A stretch of 13,290 nt of DNA. Source: Solirubrobacteraceae bacterium. GTDB lineage: Bacteria > Actinomycetota > Thermoleophilia > Solirubrobacterales > Solirubrobacteraceae. How positions within the stretch are numbered: position 1 is the first letter of the stretch; the number at the start of each line of letters is the position of its first letter. The notes beneath the pieces are model-generated. The model saw nothing but the letters and a program-made list of their open reading frames with translations. It was not told the DNA's origin and searched no databases. Both the position numbers and the translations under genes were made by a program. The stretch lies in the NCBI GenBank assembly GCA_024710825.1, contig JANJUA010000289.1, forward strand, positions 1 to 13,290. The letters are read 5' to 3'. Below, one piece after another: positions 3,742 to 12,371 of this stretch.

Positions 3742-3768
3742 AGAAGTTCCCCGAAGTCGCGGACTTCT
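3742..3768 (-). terminator. Hairpin between the ATP-grasp and zinc-ribbon genes, possibly an attenuator
   Basis: A perfect 6-bp stem with a 3-base loop (GAAGTC-GCG-GACTTC, 3753-3767) overlaps the ATP-grasp stop codon. A second GAAGT copy at 3743-3747 can pair with the same right arm, so two alternative foldings are possible. No U tract follows on the minus strand, so it is not a classical intrinsic terminator. It could attenuate or process the message between the two genes. Confidence 0.4.
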
Positions 3769-4759
3769 ACCTGGGCGGGGGCGGCCCTCCCGACACCAGA
3801 TCGCGCCCCGTCGGCCGCATCTCCGGGTCCAGCTCCAGCTGCCAGAAGTAGCGCGTGAAGCTCATCCCGGAGCGGTACTCGCCCACGTGGGGCTCGACCC
3901 GCTCGCCGCGGGCCAGCGCGACGATCAGCTCAGGATAGGTCCTACCCGGCAGGGCCGCGTACATCGGCGCCGGGAACGCCCCGCCAAAGCGGGTGTTGAC
4001 GTCCGTGATCCCGAGCCCGACCTCCGAGTCGCGGAACGCCTGCACCGTGCAGGGCCCGCGCACGCCGAGCGCCTCCACGAGCGAGGCCGCCAGCTCGACG
4101 AGCTCGGGCGCGTCCAGCACCGTGCCCTTGACCTGCTCGCCCCCGCGCGCCTCGATCATGTTGCGGGCGATGGCGTTGAGGCAGCGCCCGTCGCGGTCCG
4201 ACAGGCAGTCGATCGAGAACTCCGGCCCGTCCATGAGCTTCTGCACCATCACCGGCTCCTCGACGTAGTCGCAGAAGAAGGCGGCCTGGGCGGCGTCGCG
4301 CGCCGGGTGGATCGAGCGGGCGCCCGAGCCGCGCCGGGGCTTGACCATGACCGGGTAGTACGGGGGCTCCTCGCCGGGCAGCACCGTCGGCGGCGACGGG
4401 AACCCGAGCCGCTCGAGCAGCAGGTGCGCCTCGTACTTGTCGTACGTGGCCGCGGCGATCTCCGGGTCGGGGACGAGCGCCTGCGGCAGGCGGCCGTCGG
4501 CGCGCGCGATCGCCAGCGTCTCGATGTCGAGGTCCGTGAGCGGGACGATGGCGCCGACGTCGTGGCGCTCGCAGAGCTCCTGCAGCGCCGGGACGTAGCC
4601 CGGGTCGTCGATGCGGGGGACGCTCGTGCGGACCGTCGCGGCGTACTGCGCCGGGGCCAACGGGTTGGGGTCGGCGGCGACGACCGTCGTGTGCTGGGCG
4701 AACGACGCGACGATGTCGTAGCGCTTGCCGACGCCGGTGAGGAGGACTGCCTCGGGCAT
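3767..4759 (-). CDS. ATP-grasp domain carboxylate-amine ligase-like protein (carbamoyl-phosphate-synthase/PylC-like)
   Basis: The 330-residue protein likely activates a carboxylate with ATP and joins it to an amine or thiol; the substrates are unknown. A Rossmann-like pre-ATP-grasp domain comes first (VLLTGVGKR at 5-13, an acidic D30 after the second strand, IVPLTDLD at 71-78). The ATP-grasp domain follows, with the ATP-lysine strand VMVKPRRGSGAR (137-148), E180 in DGPEFSID and the metal-binding D253VN255TR strand, where many relatives have EINPR. The frame stays open upstream of 4759, but the ATG there starts the first conserved strand. An upstream start would run through the divergent channel gene. 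A candidate -10, CAGAGT, ends 8 bases upstream. The zinc-ribbon gene is downstream. It could act in cell-wall or peptide modification, but nothing here shows that. Confidence 0.88.
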   Translation of the reverse strand: MPEAVLLTGVGKRYDIVASFAQHTTVVAADPNPLAPAQYAATVRTSVPRIDDPGYVPALQELCERHDVGAIVPLTDLDIETLAIARADGRLPQALVPDPEIAAATYDKYEAHLLLERLGFPSPPTVLPGEEPPYYPVMVKPRRGSGARSIHPARDAAQAAFFCDYVEEPVMVQKLMDGPEFSIDCLSDRDGRCLNAIARNMIEARGGEQVKGTVLDAPELVELAASLVEALGVRGPCTVQAFRDSEVGLGITDVNTRFGGAFPAPMYAALPGRTYPELIVALARGERVEPHVGEYRSGMSFTRYFWQLELDPEMRPTGRDLVSGGPPPPR

Positions 4760-4790
4760 GGGCGAGCACTCTGGCAGGATGCGCGCGCAC
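4760..4790. promoter_or_regulatory. 31-bp divergent promoter region of the ATP-grasp and ion-channel genes
   Basis: Two -10-like hexamers lie back to back: CAGAGT on the minus strand (4773-4768), 8 bases before the ATP-grasp ATG, and CAGGAT on the plus strand (4775-4780), 10 bases before the channel ATG. Each promoter's -35 region would fall inside the other gene's coding sequence, so RNA polymerase could probably serve only one side at a time. The AGGA at 4776-4779 could instead be a ribosome binding site for the channel. Confidence 0.4.
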
Positions 4791-5636
4791 ATGGCCCGCA
4801 CCTGTCGCCGGATCGTGGACTCCCGCTGGTTCGACCCGCTGATGCTGACGATCATCTTCGTCAACGCGGTGACGCTCGGGCTCGAGACCTACGAGGCGAT
4901 CGACCGCAGCGTGGGGCCGGAGCTGAACCTCCTCAACGCGATCATCCTCGGCGCGTTCGTCGTCGAGCTGCTGATCCGGATCGGCGCGTACGGCAGCCGC
5001 CCGCAGGACTTCTTCCGCGACGGCTGGAACGTCTTCGACTTCGTCGTCATCGGCGCCGCCTTCGTCCCGGGGGTGCGCGAGAACGCGACCCTGCTGCGCC
5101 TCGTGCGGCTGCTGCGGATCGTGCGCGCCGTTCGGCTGCTGCCGGACCTGCGCGTCCTCACGGTGGCGGTCGCCCGCTCGGTCCCGGGCGTCGCGAGCCT
5201 CGCCGTGATCACGCTGCTGCTCGTCTACGTCTACGCGATGGTCGGCTGGCTCGTCTTCGCGGAGCACGACCCGGCGAACTTCGGCAACGTCGGTCAGTCG
5301 ATGGTGACGATGTTCGTCCTGCTCACGCTCGAGAACCTGCCGACGTACATCGAGGAGGGCCAGCGGCTGTCGGACTGGACGCTGCTGTTCTTCGTCTCCT
5401 ACGTGCTGCTGGCGTCGTTGCTGATCCTCAACCTGTTCATCGGGATCGTCATCAACTCGATGGAGGAGGCGCGCGCGATCGAGCTGCACCGCGCGGAGGC
5501 GGAGCTGCTCGACGACGACGAGGCCAACGACGAGCGCGCGCATGCGGTGGTGGTGCGCGAGCGCCTGCGCGTGCTCAAGGAGTCCCTCGAGGACCTCGAG
5601 CGCGAGCTGGCGGCGCGGGAGCGCTCGCGCCGCTGA
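4791..5636 (+). CDS. Voltage-gated cation channel, BacNav-like ion transport protein
   Basis: This 281-residue, one-domain, six-helix protein should form homotetramers in the membrane and pass cations on depolarisation. Visible parts are S1 (about 16-32), S2 (46-64), and S3 (78-93, with NVFDFVVI). S4 carries a perfect every-third-residue Arg ladder at 103, 106, 109, 112 and 115. S5 (133-156), a pore helix and S6 (about 194-223) follow. The filter reads TLENLP (179-184). NaChBac has TLESW, so the key Glu181 is kept while the Ser-Trp pair is replaced. A charged C-terminal helix (224-281) rich in Glu and Arg looks like the coiled-coil neck of this family. In-frame ATGs at 4725, 4758 and 4779 are possible, but the first two overlap the divergent gene. 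The ATG at 4791 has AGGA or a -10 box 10-11 bases upstream. Ion selectivity cannot be told from sequence. Confidence 0.9.
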   Translation: MARTCRRIVDSRWFDPLMLTIIFVNAVTLGLETYEAIDRSVGPELNLLNAIILGAFVVELLIRIGAYGSRPQDFFRDGWNVFDFVVIGAAFVPGVRENATLLRLVRLLRIVRAVRLLPDLRVLTVAVARSVPGVASLAVITLLLVYVYAMVGWLVFAEHDPANFGNVGQSMVTMFVLLTLENLPTYIEEGQRLSDWTLLFFVSYVLLASLLILNLFIGIVINSMEEARAIELHRAEAELLDDDEANDERAHAVVVRERLRVLKESLEDLERELAARERSRR

Positions 5637-5860: not shown

Positions 5861-6411
5861 AGCCCCGAGCCGCGCACGAGCACGGTCACCGTGCGGCGGA
5901 TGATCGCCAGGTCCAGGCGCCACGAGCGGTGCTCGACGTACCAGAGGTCCAGCTCGATGCGCTCCGACCACGGCAACGACGCGCGGCCCTGCACCTGCGC
6001 CCAACCCGTGAGCCCCGGCTTGACCGCCAGCCGCCCGCGCTGACGCTCGGTGTACTGGGCGACCTGCACGGGGATCGTCGGCCGCGGGCCCACGATCGCC
6101 ATCTCGCCGCGCAGCACGTTGACGAGGTTGGGCAGCTCGTCGATCGAGGTGCGCCGCAGGAACGCGCCGACGCGGGTGATGCGCGGATCGCCCTCGTTGA
6201 CCGCCATGCCCGCCCCGAGGCCCTCCGCGCCCTGGACCATCGTGCGGAGCTTGAGCATGTCGAACTCGCGGCCGTCCTTGCCGACTCGGAGCTGCCGGTA
6301 GACCACGGGGCCCGGCGACTCGAGCCGGATGGCCAGCGCCGCGGCCGCCATCACGGGGGCGCCGGCGACGAGGCCGAACGCGGCCACCACGACGTCGAAG
6401 GCGCGCCTCAA
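5824..6411 (-). CDS. Polyisoprenyl-phosphate sugar-1-phosphate transferase (short PglC/WcaJ-C type)
   Basis: This enzyme transfers a sugar-1-phosphate from a nucleotide sugar to undecaprenyl phosphate on the inner face of the membrane, the first step of building a surface glycan repeat. The 195 residues are a minimal monotopic transferase without the extra N-terminal membrane domain. They comprise an N-terminal re-entrant helix (about 4-30), then SPGP (32-35), KLRTM (54-58), and the catalytic Asp-Glu of SIDELPNL (Asp91, Glu92). GEMAIVGPRP (102-111), KPGLTGWAQV (131-140) and LDLWYV (154-159) follow. The start is a TTG at 6411-6409 inside TTGA, overlapping the upstream glycosyltransferase stop, with GAGGG 6 bases upstream. 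The match to the usual family N-terminus (RRAFD) supports it. The sugar is unknown. Confidence 0.93.
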   Translation of the reverse strand: MRRAFDVVVAAFGLVAGAPVMAAAALAIRLESPGPVVYRQLRVGKDGREFDMLKLRTMVQGAEGLGAGMAVNEGDPRITRVGAFLRRTSIDELPNLVNVLRGEMAIVGPRPTIPVQVAQYTERQRGRLAVKPGLTGWAQVQGRASLPWSERIELDLWYVEHRSWRLDLAIIRRTVTVLVRGSGLYKGERGGFDLR

Positions 6412-7514
6412 CGCGTGCCCTCGGGGGGATCCCAGCCCGCCTCGGTCCCGTGGCGCAGCCAGTCGGCGAGCCCGGCGGCCAGCGAGGCCGTCGTCAGCAC
6501 GTAGTAGCGAGCCACCAGCAGCGGGCGCGCCCGGAGGCGCCCGCCCGCGGCGGCCGCGGCGAGGAGGCCGAGCTGCGCCGCGAGCAGGAGCTTGTGCCGG
6601 CGCCAGCGCGCGAGCGTCGCCCCGAGCGCGGCGAGGTGCAGGAACGGGGTGGCGTAGCGCAGCGCCCGGTGCGAGGCGATCATCAGCGCGTAGCGCGGCG
6701 GGTAGCCGCGCGGATCGAGCAGGCCGCCGCGCAGCACGATCGGCCAGCCGTGGCTCATCATGCGTCGCTTGCGGGCGAACTCCCCCTCGATCGACGGGAC
6801 CATCTTCTCGGTGGCGCGGGCCTCGGGAACGTAGACGGCGCGCCAGCCGCGCTTGACGAGGTTGAACGGGAACGAGAGGTCGTGGCCCATGATCGGGTCG
6901 ACCTCGATGTAGGCCTCGCGCCGGACCGCGTAGATCGCCCCGTTGCCGCCGGTGACCGAGGCGAGGTCGGACTCCATGCCCCGCAGCCACATCTCGTAGC
7001 GCCAGTAGAGGCCCTCCTGGTTCGTCCCGGCCTCGTTGACGAACGCGACCTGGCCGCAGGCGTAGCCGACCTCCGGGTCGGCGAACGCGGCGACGAGCCG
7101 GCGCAGCGCGTCGGGCTCCCACAGCGCGTTGGCGTCGGAGAAGGCGACGACGGCGCCGCGGGCGCCGCGCACCGCCGCGTCCTGGGCGCGGATCTTGCCG
7201 CCGCGCGGCAGGTCGAGGACCGCGTCGGCGCCCGCCTCCCGGGCGAGGGCCACGGTCGCGTCGGTCGACCCGTCGGAGGCGACGACGACCTCGAGTCGCT
7301 CCCGCGGCCAGTCGAGCGCGAGCGCGTTGGCGACCTTGTCTGCGATCACCGTCTCCTCGTCGTGGGCGGCGACGACGAGCGTGACGTCGGGCTCGATCGG
7401 CGCGGCGGCGACGGGGCGGGGGCCGAGAACGCGCCTGAGCGCGGCGAGCAGCAGGCCGTAGCCGGCCTGGGCGTAGGCGAGGAGGGCGACGGATCCGTAG
7501 AGCAGGGCGCGCAT
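6408..7514 (-). CDS. Family 2 glycosyltransferase with C-terminal membrane region
   Basis: This inverting GT-A glycosyltransferase probably adds sugars to a lipid-linked or extruded polysaccharide at the membrane. Its 368 residues hold an N-terminal transmembrane helix (about 3-28), the catalytic domain (about 42-260), and a hydrophobic C-terminal region (about 285-350). Nucleotide-sugar binding is shown by ASDGSTD (79-85) and by the metal-binding SDAN (126-129). GGNGAIYAVRREAY (189-202) and the likely catalytic base in HDLSFPF (Asp212) follow. RKRRM (248-252) sits where processive enzymes have QxxRW. The organisation resembles cellulose/hyaluronan-synthase-like GT2 proteins. The sugar transferase gene follows with a TTGA overlap. 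Upstream lies the oppositely oriented DUF cassette. A CACACT (7530-7525) 10 bases before the ATG is a possible -10 box. Confidence 0.93.
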   Translation of the reverse strand: MRALLYGSVALLAYAQAGYGLLLAALRRVLGPRPVAAAPIEPDVTLVVAAHDEETVIADKVANALALDWPRERLEVVVASDGSTDATVALAREAGADAVLDLPRGGKIRAQDAAVRGARGAVVAFSDANALWEPDALRRLVAAFADPEVGYACGQVAFVNEAGTNQEGLYWRYEMWLRGMESDLASVTGGNGAIYAVRREAYIEVDPIMGHDLSFPFNLVKRGWRAVYVPEARATEKMVPSIEGEFARKRRMMSHGWPIVLRGGLLDPRGYPPRYALMIASHRALRYATPFLHLAALGATLARWRRHKLLLAAQLGLLAAAAAGGRLRARPLLVARYYVLTTASLAAGLADWLRHGTEAGWDPPEGTR

Positions 7515-7644: not shown

Positions 7645-8142
7645 ATGCTGCCCCCACTGACCGAGACGGCCGTCGAGGATCTCCTGACGGCCGGGCCTGT
7701 CGCACGCGGCCGGCTCGAGTGGGCGGTCCGGGGCGGCCACCTCCGTAGCCGCCTCCCGATCGCCAACGACCGCGGAGAGTCGCTCGAGCTCGATTTCCAC
7801 ATCTCGCTGGATGTACCGTGGAAGTACACGCTGCAGCTCATGTGGGCCAAGCGCCCGATCAAGCGGCTCGACGTTCGCGGCAGCCATGTGAACCACTGCG
7901 ACGGGTCCAACACGACTTGGCGCTTCCAGACGCACAAGCAGCCGTTCAAGGACCGCTACGACCTCGGGCAGGCCTACACTCCAGGCGACATACCCGACAC
8001 GAACGGCACGGTCGTGGCGCCAGGCGAGTACCAAGCAGTTTTCCAGGCATTTCTCGCGGAATGCGGCATCCGCGACGATTGCGTGTGGGTGGAGCCGCGC
8101 GTGCCGGCAGCGCAGCTCTCGACGCGCCAGGGACCGCGATGA
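7645..8142 (+). CDS. Small protein resembling DUF6978, first gene of the two-gene accessory cassette
   Basis: The 165-residue protein has no signal peptide or membrane helix. A helical N-terminus (1-30) precedes a beta-rich core with LELDFHISLD (47-56), LQLMW (63-67), RLDVRGSHVNHCDG (74-87) and WRFQTHK (92-98). This spacing of RLD, H, DG and H recalls proteins labelled DUF6978 in phage and accessory regions; the match is from memory and moderate. The conserved-looking Arg74, Asp76, His81, His84, Asp86 and His97 could form a catalytic or metal site, which is inference. The ATG at 7645 has no ribosome binding site, and the frame stays open back to 7513, so a longer form is possible. Three hand-counted lines average about 64% GC against 78-80% in flanking genes, a sign of transfer. 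It ends in ATGA shared with the DUF1828/1829 gene. Confidence 0.75.
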   Translation: MLPPLTETAVEDLLTAGPVARGRLEWAVRGGHLRSRLPIANDRGESLELDFHISLDVPWKYTLQLMWAKRPIKRLDVRGSHVNHCDGSNTTWRFQTHKQPFKDRYDLGQAYTPGDIPDTNGTVVAPGEYQAVFQAFLAECGIRDDCVWVEPRVPAAQLSTRQGPR

Positions 8143-8954
8143 GCGACTGCGTCGAGCTCGTGGAGCGGTACACGGAAGGACTCGGGCAACGCTTCGCCTG
8201 TCGACCTCTGTCGCGCGACAACGAGGTGCTGCTGAGTACCCCTTACGCTTATGTCGACGGCGATCTCCTGGAGGTGGTGGCGGTCGTCGGCTCTGAGCGC
8301 CTAGTGCTCGGCGACGCAGGCTCGGCGCTGAACCGACTCGAGCTTCACGGGCTCAACGTCGAGGCGCCGACAGTGCGCCGACAGATGAGGGCGATACTCC
8401 ACGGATTCCTCGTTGACCTTCGCGACGGCAGGCTCGAGGTGGAGGGATCCCCGGAGCAGTCGACCGACATGCTGCTGCGGCTCGTGGGGGCGATGCGAGA
8501 GGTGGATGCGCTGCGCCTGCTCCAGCCGCAGCCGCGACCGCCGCGCTTCGAGGAGCGGCTGCTGACGCACCTTCGCGCTCGTTGCACCGACGTCGAGGAG
8601 CGGCCGACCCTGACGGGTCGCAGCGGGTCGCGCTACCGCCTCACCGCAGCGTTCGGGCGGCGCGACCCAGTGTACGTCCAGGCGGTCGCCGGCGGACGGG
8701 GCGAGAGCGGTGTGCGATCCGTGAACCAGGCCTTCCGGGTCTTCCACGACGTGGACGGGCAGCTTTCACCGGAGCGAAAGCTCGTCGTCCTCTCCGACGA
8801 CGATCAGCCGTGGCGGCGCGAGGATCTGGAGCTGCTCGGCACCGTCGCATATGTAGCGGGTTGGTGGGCGCCTGCAGCGCTCGACGACTTTCTTGAGCGC
8901 CGCACCGCAGAGCACCGTCTGCTGTTCCCCGAGCAGACCGCTCTCCCCTCGTAG
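8139..8954 (+). CDS. DUF1828-DUF1829 protein, second gene of the accessory cassette
   Basis: The 271-residue cytoplasmic protein has two regions. Residues 1-105 match the DUF1828 pattern: LLSTPYAYVDGDLLEVV (31-47), LVLGDAGSALNRLELHGLN (55-73), then a helix with RRQMRAILHGF (80-90) and a DGRLEVEG strand (96-103). Residues about 135-265 fit DUF1829, with TGRSGSRYRL (159-168) and YVQAVAG (179-185) in the core. Both domains have no established role and are commonly found together. The start codon overlaps the previous stop (ATGA, 8139-8142), so the two products are made in a coupled way and probably act together. No nuclease, ATPase or helicase motif can be seen. I infer a role as partner or antidote, or as effector, of the smaller protein, but the sequence does not decide. 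Codon use is less GC-biased than in the flanking genes. Confidence 0.8.
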   Translation: MSDCVELVERYTEGLGQRFACRPLSRDNEVLLSTPYAYVDGDLLEVVAVVGSERLVLGDAGSALNRLELHGLNVEAPTVRRQMRAILHGFLVDLRDGRLEVEGSPEQSTDMLLRLVGAMREVDALRLLQPQPRPPRFEERLLTHLRARCTDVEERPTLTGRSGSRYRLTAAFGRRDPVYVQAVAGGRGESGVRSVNQAFRVFHDVDGQLSPERKLVVLSDDDQPWRREDLELLGTVAYVAGWWAPAALDDFLERRTAEHRLLFPEQTALPS

Positions 8955-9066: not shown

Positions 9067-10575
9067 TCAGGCCGACGCCGGCGCGGGCTCATCCGTGGCG
9101 GGCGTGGGGCGCGGCGCCGCCAGCGCCATGCCGACGCCCAGCAGGGCCCACGACAGCGGGTCCTCCAGGAACGCCGCGTAGAGCATCGTGTGCACGATCA
9201 GGGCCACGAAGGCGGCGGCCACGTACGCGCGCAGCGGCGACGAGCGCGCCCCGCGCAGCAGCCGGACGAGCGCCGCCACGAGCAGCGCGAGGTAGACCGC
9301 CAGGCCGACGACGCCCTGCTCGGCCGCCACCGTCACCGGGATCGTGTGCGACGCCGTCGCCGCGCGCTCGCTGGACACGCCCTCCTCCTCGCGGAAGACC
9401 GTCGCGAACGAGCCCGAGCCGTAGCCGAGGACCGGCCGGTCGCGGAACAGGTCGACGCCGCCCACGACGAGGTCCGCGCGGCCGCTCGTGGCCTTGTCGG
9501 CCGCACGCTGCGAGCTGATGTCCAGGCGGACCGCGTCGGGCGCCAGCAGCACCAGCGCCAGGCCGATCGCGGCGGCCACGGCGACCGCCGCCGCCGTCCA
9601 GCGCACGCTCCAGCGCAGCGCGGCGAGCACCGCGAGGCCGGCGAGCAGGGCCGCGAAGCTCGACTGCGAGAACGTCAGCACCAGCCCCGCCCACAGCAGC
9701 GCCAGCGCCAGCGCCCCGAGCAGCACGTCGCGCGAGCTGCGCGCCCACAGGACGACCGTCGCCACGCCGAGCATCACGGTCGCGAGGAAGCGGCCGTAGA
9801 CGTTGGGGTCGAAGAACAGCGAGTTGACCCGGAAGTAGCTCTGGTACTGGCTCGCCGCGACCAGGTCGGGGTTCAGCAGCAGCTCCTTGCGCCAGTACTC
9901 GACGAACCCGACGCAGACGAACACCGCGGCGAGCGCGAGCAGCACCCCCAGGCACTGGAGCGCGAGCCGCCGCGTCCAGCGGATCTCGCGCAGCAGCCCG
10001 AGCAGCAGCGCGAACGGCACGTAGAAGAAGACGACGTTCTGCAGCGCCTTGGCGAAGTCGTCGGAGTAGGCGGCCTGCAGCGCGTAGAGCACCACCGACC
10101 CGACGAGCAGCCACTCGAGAGCGCGCGGGCGGAACGGGGCGTCGTCGTCGGGGCCGCGCGCCCTCGGGACGGCGTGGGCGAGCACGCCGGCGGCGATCAC
10201 GAGGTACAGGGGCACGAGCAGGTTCGAGGTGTCCCCGCCGGCGGAGATCGGGATCCGGAACGGCAGGGCGGCGACCGCGAGCAGCGGCAGCAGCGCCGGC
10301 CAGCGGCGCATGAGCAGGGCGAGCACCGCCACCGCCGCCAGCGCGCCGAGGACGGCGCCCGCGGCGATCGCCGGGCGGTCGCGCAGCGACGCGATCTGCG
10401 GCGAGTCCCAGATGTCGGCCACGAGCAGGATCGGCGTCAGCGCCAGCGCGAGCAGCGCGGCGATCGCCCGGCCGCGCACCGACGGGGCGAGCAGGGCGAC
10501 GCCGACGAGCAGCGCCGCGGCGACGACGCCGAGGCGGTAGACCACGTCCGCCAGGTCGGTGGCCGCGAGGATCAT
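9067..10575 (-). CDS. O-antigen ligase/polymerase-like (WaaL/Wzy, PF04932-type) membrane protein
   Basis: This 502-residue polytopic protein has roughly a dozen hydrophobic segments. It probably polymerises lipid-linked repeats or ligates a glycan on the outer face of the membrane. The family region is recognised by FFDPNVYGRFLA (254-265), the large outer loop containing SGRADLVVGGVDLF (364-377) and RPVLGYGSGSF (380-390), and SHTIPVTVAAEQGVVGLAVY (409-428). Arg366 and His410 occupy the positions of the conserved functional Arg and His. The ATG at 10575 lies in an ATGA overlap with the upstream gene's stop. An ATG at 10593 would add six residues but has no ribosome binding site. It is the last gene of the coupled minus-strand chain, and a polymerase/ligase fits the downstream GT2 and sugar transferase. 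Confidence 0.9.
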   Translation of the reverse strand: MILAATDLADVVYRLGVVAAALLVGVALLAPSVRGRAIAALLALALTPILLVADIWDSPQIASLRDRPAIAAGAVLGALAAVAVLALLMRRWPALLPLLAVAALPFRIPISAGGDTSNLLVPLYLVIAAGVLAHAVPRARGPDDDAPFRPRALEWLLVGSVVLYALQAAYSDDFAKALQNVVFFYVPFALLLGLLREIRWTRRLALQCLGVLLALAAVFVCVGFVEYWRKELLLNPDLVAASQYQSYFRVNSLFFDPNVYGRFLATVMLGVATVVLWARSSRDVLLGALALALLWAGLVLTFSQSSFAALLAGLAVLAALRWSVRWTAAAVAVAAAIGLALVLLAPDAVRLDISSQRAADKATSGRADLVVGGVDLFRDRPVLGYGSGSFATVFREEEGVSSERAATASHTIPVTVAAEQGVVGLAVYLALLVAALVRLLRGARSSPLRAYVAAAFVALIVHTMLYAAFLEDPLSWALLGVGMALAAPRPTPATDEPAPASA

Positions 10576-12371
10576 CCCGACAGCAGCGTCCATGTGCGCC
10601 GCACCAGCTCCGTCTCGTTGCTCGGCTCACCCAGCCGCTCGGCCAGCTGCGGCAGGCCGAAGCGGATGACGAGCCCCTCGCCCAGCCTGGTCGCCACGAT
10701 CACCTTGCGCCCGTCGTCGGTGGCCGCGCTGGCGACGATCTCCTGCCCGTCGCCCACCGACCGCGTCGCCTCGAAGACGTCGTAGCCGGTGAAGACCCCG
10801 GTGCCGCCGTAGACGTCGCCGGCGAAGAGCTCGATCTCGTCGTTGAAGATCGTCAGCGTCGTGTCCTCCGCGCGCTCCAGCGGCGCCAGCGTCGCGCCGA
10901 ACGCGTCCGCCGGCGTGGGCGCCGTGGGATCGACGAGCCGCTCCGCCGTCAGGCGCACCTGCCGGCGCAGCGAGTCGACGCCGAAGCTCGCGACGACGCC
11001 GCCGCGGCGCACGAAGCGCCGCAGCTCGCGCTGCTGCTCGACCGGCAGCCAGCGCTCGTCGCCGGCCAGCATGACGCCGGTGTGGCCCTCGATGCGCGGC
11101 CCGACGTCCGCGGCGAGCGCCAGGTCGGTAGTGAGGTCGTAGCGAAGCTCCTGCCGGTCCAGGAAGATCAGCAGCGGCGCGATCTGACGCACCAGGTCGC
11201 CGGGCAGCCCGTCGGCCAGGACGCGCTCGCGTCGCACCGGCAGGCCGCCGCTCAGGGTGTTCGGCCAGCCGTCGCCGTCGTCGTCCACCGCGTTGCGGCC
11301 CTGCCAGGTGATCGCCGGGAGGACCACGAGCACCTTGCGCGTCTTCACCGCCTGGATCGGCAGCGGGACGCTCGTCGTGCGCCCGCCCGCGCGCACCTCG
11401 AACAGGTAGAGGCCGGACCGCTTGACATCCGGGGCCTTGAACGTCACGACCGGCTTCGTCTTGCGCCCGTCCTTGTCGACCCTCGTCACGCCGACGCGAC
11501 GCACCGACCAGCGGTAGGGGCGGCGGCGGGCGTCGACGCCGAACTGGACGTTCGAGCCCGCGATCGACGGCTCGAGCGTCGGCTGCACGCCCAGCTCGCG
11601 GATCGTGATGCCGCCGCGCCCGCCGAGCGTCGTGCCGTACTCCGCGCGCGGCGGCAGCGGGCTCGGCGACGTCCCGACGTTGCCGGCCTGGTCGCGGGTG
11701 CGGACCGCGACGACGTAGGTGCCCGGGCGCATCGGGCGCCCCGCCTCGTCGGCGCCGCTCCACACCGTCTGGTCCTCGCCCGCGGGCACGGTCGTCTCGT
11801 GCACCAGCTCGACCCCCGGCGACGTGCGGTAGATCAGGACGTCGGTCGGCTCCTTCGTGGAAGGGGTGTAGAAGCGGATGCGGGCCTCGCCGCCGTCGCC
11901 GAGCGGCAGGATCTCCGGCTTCGTCGGGCTCGGGCCGATCGACAGGACGCGCGGCTTCGGCGGCTTCGTGTCCAGCGTGACGATGCGCGGGAGCAGGACG
12001 GCGCGGCCCTGGTCCTGGAGGTTGACGCGGTAGCGATAGACGCCGTCCGGAGCGACCCGGCCGTCGTCGGTGCGCCCGTTCCAGCGCACCCGCAGCCGCT
12101 CGCCCGCGGCCAGCGGCCGGTTGCGCACGAGCGTCCGCACCGGCTCGAGGTCCTCGTCGATCACGCGCACCGAGACGGTGTCGGGACGGTCGAGGGCGAA
12201 GCTCGCCCGCGCGCGGTCCTTGACGCCGTCGTCGTTGGGCGAGAACAGCCGCGTGGCGCGGACCTCCCGGAGGTCGGACGGCTCGCGCTTGACGCGCTGG
12301 ACGACGAAGAAGGCCGCGAAGGTCGCGACGACGAGCAGCGCGAACGCCGCCCCGCGGAGGCGCCCGGTCAC
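10572..12371 (-). CDS. Membrane-anchored FlgD-Ig-like protein with dimethylformamidase-beta-like C-terminal domain
   Basis: This 599-residue protein starts with one transmembrane helix or uncleaved signal anchor (about 5-25). Two FlgD-type Ig-like modules lie outside the cell. The first has FSPNDDGVKD (43-52) and VRWNGRTDDGRVAPDGVYRY (95-114). The second has VWSGADEAGRPMRPGTYVVA (203-222). A further beta-rich region leads to a C-terminal domain (about 345-599) with ITWQGRN, a DDDGDG loop (363-368), GHTGVMLAGDERWL (429-442) and RRFVRRGGVVASFG (451-464). This resembles the C-terminal part of N,N-dimethylformamidase beta subunits, where GHDEYW and GGNLAF motifs occur. Enzyme activity is not shown. 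The start is GTG within GTGA, shared with the phosphatase stop, and the end is ATGA, shared with the polymerase start. I infer a wall or glycan role from context. Confidence 0.82.
   Translation of the reverse strand: MTGRLRGAAFALLVVATFAAFFVVQRVKREPSDLREVRATRLFSPNDDGVKDRARASFALDRPDTVSVRVIDEDLEPVRTLVRNRPLAAGERLRVRWNGRTDDGRVAPDGVYRYRVNLQDQGRAVLLPRIVTLDTKPPKPRVLSIGPSPTKPEILPLGDGGEARIRFYTPSTKEPTDVLIYRTSPGVELVHETTVPAGEDQTVWSGADEAGRPMRPGTYVVAVRTRDQAGNVGTSPSPLPPRAEYGTTLGGRGGITIRELGVQPTLEPSIAGSNVQFGVDARRRPYRWSVRRVGVTRVDKDGRKTKPVVTFKAPDVKRSGLYLFEVRAGGRTTSVPLPIQAVKTRKVLVVLPAITWQGRNAVDDDGDGWPNTLSGGLPVRRERVLADGLPGDLVRQIAPLLIFLDRQELRYDLTTDLALAADVGPRIEGHTGVMLAGDERWLPVEQQRELRRFVRRGGVVASFGVDSLRRQVRLTAERLVDPTAPTPADAFGATLAPLERAEDTTLTIFNDEIELFAGDVYGGTGVFTGYDVFEATRSVGDGQEIVASAATDDGRKVIVATRLGEGLVIRFGLPQLAERLGEPSNETELVRRTWTLLSG

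Follow-up and report, generated by a model that had tools for sequence, protein, structure and literature searches.

A divergent, horizontally acquired PDC-M24-type gene pair as a candidate toxin-antitoxin-style defence unit

The window, i.e., the whole stretch of 13,290 bases that we analysed and that forms an entire contig of a genome in 444 contigs, carries two overlapping genes, here termed A and B. By homology, they form a divergent variant of the two-gene module PDC-M24, and they were acquired horizontally. With somewhat more conviction than doubt, we consider its most likely function to be that of a toxin-antitoxin (TA)-style defence unit, in which A would act as the effector and B as its restraint or sensor. 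This reading draws on the matches to PDC-M24, the pairing of both genes in all testable named loci, distances that co-vary between A and B, an asymmetric decay of the two genes, their position in phages, and B's predicted folds together with the missing expected catalytic residues of its C-domain. The precedent of DS-6B for DUF1829, a similarity of A to TumE, the low GC3 of the pair and the absence of A from three congeners point the same way. The first-pass annotation had suggested a candidate TA or defence module, with the function as its inference, and this suggestion is supported by the conserved pairing, the mobile and variable settings, the contrast in defence-model matches and the listing of PDC-M24 in PADLOC. 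That is, the pair type is already known to PADLOC, as a phage-defence candidate. In the literature searched, we found no published mechanism, study or test of PDC-M24 or the DUF6978-DUF1828 pair; an excerpt from Virology Journal (PMC12482510) terms PDC systems ('phage defence candidates') other than PDC-M24 still uncharacterised.

The features of the pair and its flanks are as follows (window positions, strand, basis).

6408..7514, minus strand: flanking GT2 glycosyltransferase gene (family core, 57/61 genomes)
7645..8142, plus strand: gene A, DUF6978-like (PDC-M24A-like), 165 aa, proposed toxin/effector (ORF; hhalign to DUF6978-type proteins; homologue P0004)
7885..7941, plus strand: H-x-N ... 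H-x-H site conserved among A proteins, present in window A as H81, N83, H97, K98 and Q99 (comparison with relatives)
8139..8142, plus strand: ATGA overlap of the A stop with the B start (sequence)
8139..8954, plus strand: gene B, DUF1828 protein with PDC-M24B match, 271 aa, proposed antitoxin/sensor (ORF; Pfam; PADLOC)
8238..8504, plus strand: DUF1828 match, B residues 34-122, within the N-domain (Pfam; predicted type III secretion-chaperone/YbjN-like fold)
8535..8912, plus strand: C-domain of B (residues 133-258), whose predicted PD-(D/E)XK fold lacks the catalytic residues that would be expected
9067..10593, minus strand: flanking O-antigen ligase-type (Wzy_C) gene (family core, 57/61 genomes)

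As first annotated, the two genes overlap by ATGA and run against their surroundings, with both flanking genes on the minus strand. Both reading frames are intact. For A, the start at 7645 agrees with that of the homologue P0004, and an alternative in-frame start lies upstream at 7513. Elsewhere in the window, an ATP-grasp gene (3767-4864, minus strand) and an ion-channel gene (4725-5636, plus strand) share 140 bases (4725-4864) when each ORF is taken from its first start, such that one of the two starts is probably annotated too far upstream.

With regard to family membership, window B matches DUF1828 (PF08861) with 38.3 bits (curated Pfam cut-off 22) and PADLOC's PDC-M24B over residues 10-252 (E 5.3e-15, 53.7 bits, a score given without PADLOC's own cut-off). 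Its original label DUF1828/1829 thus holds for the first part; for DUF1829 (PF08862), there is no Pfam match at E ≤ 1 and only an alignment of the C-terminal part of B with DUF1829-bearing relatives. Window A matches nothing in Pfam at E ≤ 1, DUF6978 (PF22398) and TumE included, and nothing in PADLOC, NCBIfam or PHROGs at E ≤ 10, PDC-M24A models included. Its homologue P0004 (54% identity) matches PDC-M24A at 6e-6. We compared window-type A (two proteins) with 21 DUF6978-type proteins, a set that excludes the window sequences, and obtained an hhalign value of 97.0% over 134 columns. The same 21 proteins gave 97.2% over 146 columns with a large group of A proteins that we call 'YNG' after its YNGKSHEHTN stretch, and such comparisons against the B domains gave about 1% or less. 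Since window-type and YNG-type A reach only 1.2% when compared directly, their kinship runs via the DUF6978 proteins. Judged from these profiles, window A is a remote DUF6978/PDC-M24A homologue; the initial DUF6978-like label therefore stands by profile-profile comparison but not by a direct family match. Because window A matches no PDC-M24A model, we class the pair as a divergent variant and not as a PDC-M24 member; the adjacency of both genes in the order A-B, by which PDC-M24 is recognised, is found in the window pair with its ATGA overlap. A near-copy of A on a 7,825-base contig (P0003) equals window A through residue 130 and then has another short C-terminus, i.e., it is either a variant or an assembly chimera.

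The composition of the pair marks it as foreign. GC content at codon position 3 (GC3) is 0.837 in A and 0.812 in B vs. 0.963-0.988 in six other window genes. The gap is smaller in overall GC (0.671 and 0.684 vs. 0.688-0.781), such that the lower GC noted at first pass is seen most clearly in GC3. A search of three congeners found neither A nor B. A B profile finds matches in 4 of 151 relatives and, within the class, in 7 of 399 genomes; both counts include the window genome, and outside it the matches belong to distant members of the superfamily (E 3.6e-4 to 2.6e-9). The junction is also variable, since the single-contig congener G002 has about 4.4 kb of other sequence between its homologues of the two flanks.

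The pairing of A and B is conserved far beyond the window. When named genomes were scanned with the YNG-type A alignment, 131 stretches were confirmed. The best 80 (L026-L105) were kept, and their sources range over many phyla of bacteria as well as methanogenic archaea. Two loci (L073, L096) are left out of the pairing, decay and spacing counts since their contigs end there. For all 78 testable named loci among the best 80 of 131, B is found downstream of A on the same strand, i.e., in the two-gene operon arrangement of TA systems. A possible B start lies within 30 nt of the A stop in 73/78 loci, and 23/78 show an NTGA overlap. Furthermore, A distances correlate with B distances (r 0.76 over 70 pairs, with a maximum of 0.15 in 1,000 permutations), where the comparison covers 70 of the 78 loci, without the short-A loci and L103. 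The DUF6978 model, which is independent of the YNG-type alignment, matches at E ≤ 0.001 in 4/296 and 4/201 genomes. B adjoins the match in seven of these eight genomes, and the eighth, whose match is below the cut-off, is without B. A search for the same pair in other genomes, proposed along with the initial annotation, thus finds it conserved in both data sets.

The pairing is looser when viewed from the B side than from the A side. DUF1828 was found in 13 of 296 genomes; 7 of these, the window genome among them, have an adjacent A-type frame, and none was seen in the other 6 (L013-L018; one match below the cut-off). No A motif was seen in L187 and L005 either. No second genome was seen to combine window-type A with an adjacent window-type B, which leaves the window as the only example. 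The DUF1828 proteins of L013-L017, several of which are short, have no visible A partner and ordinary-looking chromosomal settings. DUF1828 may also be used outside such pairs. In the E. coli control genome, too, the model finds a match.

Next to its pairing, A is characterised by its conserved site. A simple H-x-H pattern fits 115 of 121 A-type proteins (window A counted). Window A itself carries Gln99 at the second His position (HKQ), which casts doubt on whether this copy is still active. Given that some phage A proteins are without H-x-H as well, the site may not be catalytic. That the window copy is decaying or repurposed and its A inactive, which would be compatible with the TA-style defence reading of the family, is in our view on the unlikely side: HKQ is present in window A and in P0003 vs. 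HKH in the next homologue P0004, while both window frames are intact, the ATGA overlap is kept, and other A subgroups without H-x-H still have open pairs (L135-L137). Two YNG-type A sequences (L006 1869-2351 and P0017) show weak matches (E about 0.004-0.005) to PADLOC's SAVED_HNH (CBASS effector endonuclease) and PtuA models that cover the H-x-H part and are perhaps due to chance.

The two genes decay differently. When counting a gene as intact if one frame covers 85% of the model, A is intact in 70/78 and B in 77/78 named loci (best 80 of 131). A short A beside an intact B occurs in 7/78 loci, the reverse in none, and both are short in one. A served as the bait, which disfavours the detection of broken copies of it, and B, being longer, offers more room for chance errors. 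For three of the seven A-short loci, A coverage is near the threshold (0.79-0.81), and A-short calls may include assembly errors. Two mobile-element records also combine a broken A with an intact B. This asymmetry (7 to 0) fits a harmful A, as expected of a toxin.

We also studied the pair in phages and plasmids. Using a Staphylococcus-phage B protein as query, 17 phage records were found and 10 examined. An A frame lies directly upstream of B in all ten; it is open in nine and has an in-frame stop in UPMK_1. The A frames of Javan249 (L135 2330-3005) and Javan357 (L138 2250-3000), directly upstream of B, are open but unannotated. An annotated integrase or tyrosine recombinase is found at most three genes downstream in 8/10 records, with an unlabelled gene at the integrase position in phage 37 and none there in UPMK_1. 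At least 6 of the 10 records annotate a same-strand repressor or HTH gene upstream. Of eight plasmid records found, five were examined, among them a conjugative IncP plasmid; A is open upstream of B in four and decayed in one (Lactobacillus intestinalis), where B is intact. Together with the window junction, these temperate phages and plasmids bear out the variable or mobile setting that had been proposed for the pair.

With regard to defence genes, those close to the relatives of the pair yield 413 PADLOC model matches (148 genes) vs. 69 for genes further off (122 genes), a rough contrast that is based on ORF-derived gene calls (148/274 near and 122/125 far genes scanned) and counts matches of overlapping models, not distinct genes. 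The check for defence-island enrichment that had been suggested initially accordingly shows many more defence-model matches beside relatives than at a distance. Among the window genes scanned, no other defence gene was found. MADS-like genes occur near YNG-type pairs (flanks of L026-L105), where the mad2 model matches 6/148 near vs. 2/122 far genes.

These settings bear on two alternatives to a TA-style defence unit. The pair might be an addiction module only, i.e., a TA pair that stabilises prophages, plasmids and islands without a selected anti-phage role. Its presence on phages and plasmids would agree with this, as would the asymmetric decay, which suits any TA pair. We nevertheless take it to be clearly unlikely, since many relatives sit in chromosomal contigs, their neighbours match many defence models, and PADLOC holds the pair type as a defence candidate; the near/far contrast and the prophage position weakly favour defence over mere addiction. 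Still less probable is a pair of non-toxic proteins with a role in immunity or regulation tied to lysogeny, whose A would be an enzyme or a binding protein. While its place between repressor and integrase in temperate phages would suit such a role, chromosome contigs of bacteria and archaea carry the same pair, and A decays where B stays.

For B, structure prediction suggests a type III secretion-chaperone/YbjN-like fold of the N-domain and a PD-(D/E)XK fold of the C-domain, the latter resembling Cdn1, PspGI, Can2 and Bax1. We tabulated the residues of 74 of the 78 named-locus B proteins. With columns assigned by inference, the motif-II Asp is replaced by Thr in 12/12 window-type B, and Lys is absent from the aligned E-x-K column in all 101 B proteins. 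Since its C-domain is without the catalytic residues to be expected, B looks like an antitoxin or sensor and not like a nuclease. That B is instead the effector, a PD-(D/E)XK nuclease regulated by A, is suggested by its predicted fold but is highly improbable given these residues and the persistence of B where A is broken.

A is possibly a remote relative of the toxin TumE, although the profile similarity is below the usual threshold and varies with the alignment used (0.2-81%); we regard the link as suggestive. According to the parts of its description at hand, TumE packs two helices on a seven-strand sheet without a confident PDB match, is encoded in two-gene operons and lowers protein synthesis (PMC10584680). 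For 28 TumE-family against 23 DUF6978-type sequences, the hhalign value is 81% over 100 columns, and the D-N-x-P-H...H-K-H stretch of TumE falls on the D...H-x-N...H-x-H stretch. The reversed comparison gives 60%, and other alignment sets 49, 22, 19 and 15%. With A restricted to the window type or to the YNG type, the values drop to 2.8% and 0.2%, and shallower TumE alignments are negative (0.2-2.6%). Sets with at least 15% score 24.6-37.0 bits, above all 194 shuffles (maximum 14.0) and 103 decoys (maximum 18.1), both of which were run against the 23-sequence set only, with earlier hhalign output left uncleared between decoy runs, unlike between shuffle runs.

Given the TA-style defence reading, the following mechanism can be proposed. 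A would be the effector, a small alpha+beta protein with the conserved H-x-N...H-x-H site. It is probably directed at RNA or translation, considering its possible remote kinship to the translation-blocking TumE. B would restrain A, with the chaperone-like N-domain binding A and the nuclease-fold C-domain binding DNA or a phage-derived trigger. Infection would then free A and growth would stop. In this proposal, that A is toxic and that B neutralises it is our inference, as are the trigger and the protection against phages.

A bolder generalisation, which we hold possible if rather doubtful, takes PDC-M24 as a new class of TA defence. Here, a translation-directed toxin of the TumE superfamily would be held by an antitoxin that joins a secretion-chaperone fold to a dead restriction-nuclease fold sensing the phage, and the whole would be a prophage superinfection-exclusion cassette spread through bacteria and archaea. 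If the proposed mechanism is right, the separately described families DUF6978 and TumE would become linked, and a secretion-chaperone fold would be seen to serve as antitoxin. The kind of system is already a database candidate; the value of the pair lies in its mechanistic leads. PDC-M24 gains a testable mechanism that names a toxin gene (A), residues to change (the His of H-x-N...H-x-H) and roles for both domains of B. A candidate pair for such tests is that of prophage Lj965 of Lactobacillus johnsonii, a host that is harmless.

Finally, we compared the pair with known systems. The likeness of B to type III secretion chaperones and YbjN-like proteins is one of fold only (6-15% sequence identity in the structure matches), and no secretion genes are among the window genes scanned. 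With TumE-TumA (DUF6516, PF20126), as far as its description was accessible, the pair shares the two-gene operon, and A has a predicted helix-strands-helix order and a D...H...H-x-H stretch that are similar to those of TumE. It differs in that A has no Pfam TumE match, B does not resemble the RelB-like antitoxin that one TumE cluster is described to have, and the A-B gene order is opposite to that of most TumE clusters. HipAD/DS-6, in the portions of its report available, is a validated two-gene defence system of a HipA-like kinase and a DUF3037-DUF1829 protein, DS-6B, for which its authors hypothesise a TA-like mechanism (PMC13092281). The DUF1829 of this partner is also carried by PDC-M24B relatives, whereas its effector is a kinase and not DUF6978, its N-domain is DUF3037 instead of DUF1828, and window B lacks a direct DUF1829 match. 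With regard to PDC-M24 itself (PDC-M24A, DUF6978; PDC-M24B, DUF1828/DUF1829), window A matches none of the PDC-M24A models at E ≤ 10, and in window-type B the motif-II column holds Thr and a DUF1829 match is absent; like PDC-M24, the window pair consists of two adjoining genes in the order A-B, and its B matches PDC-M24B.
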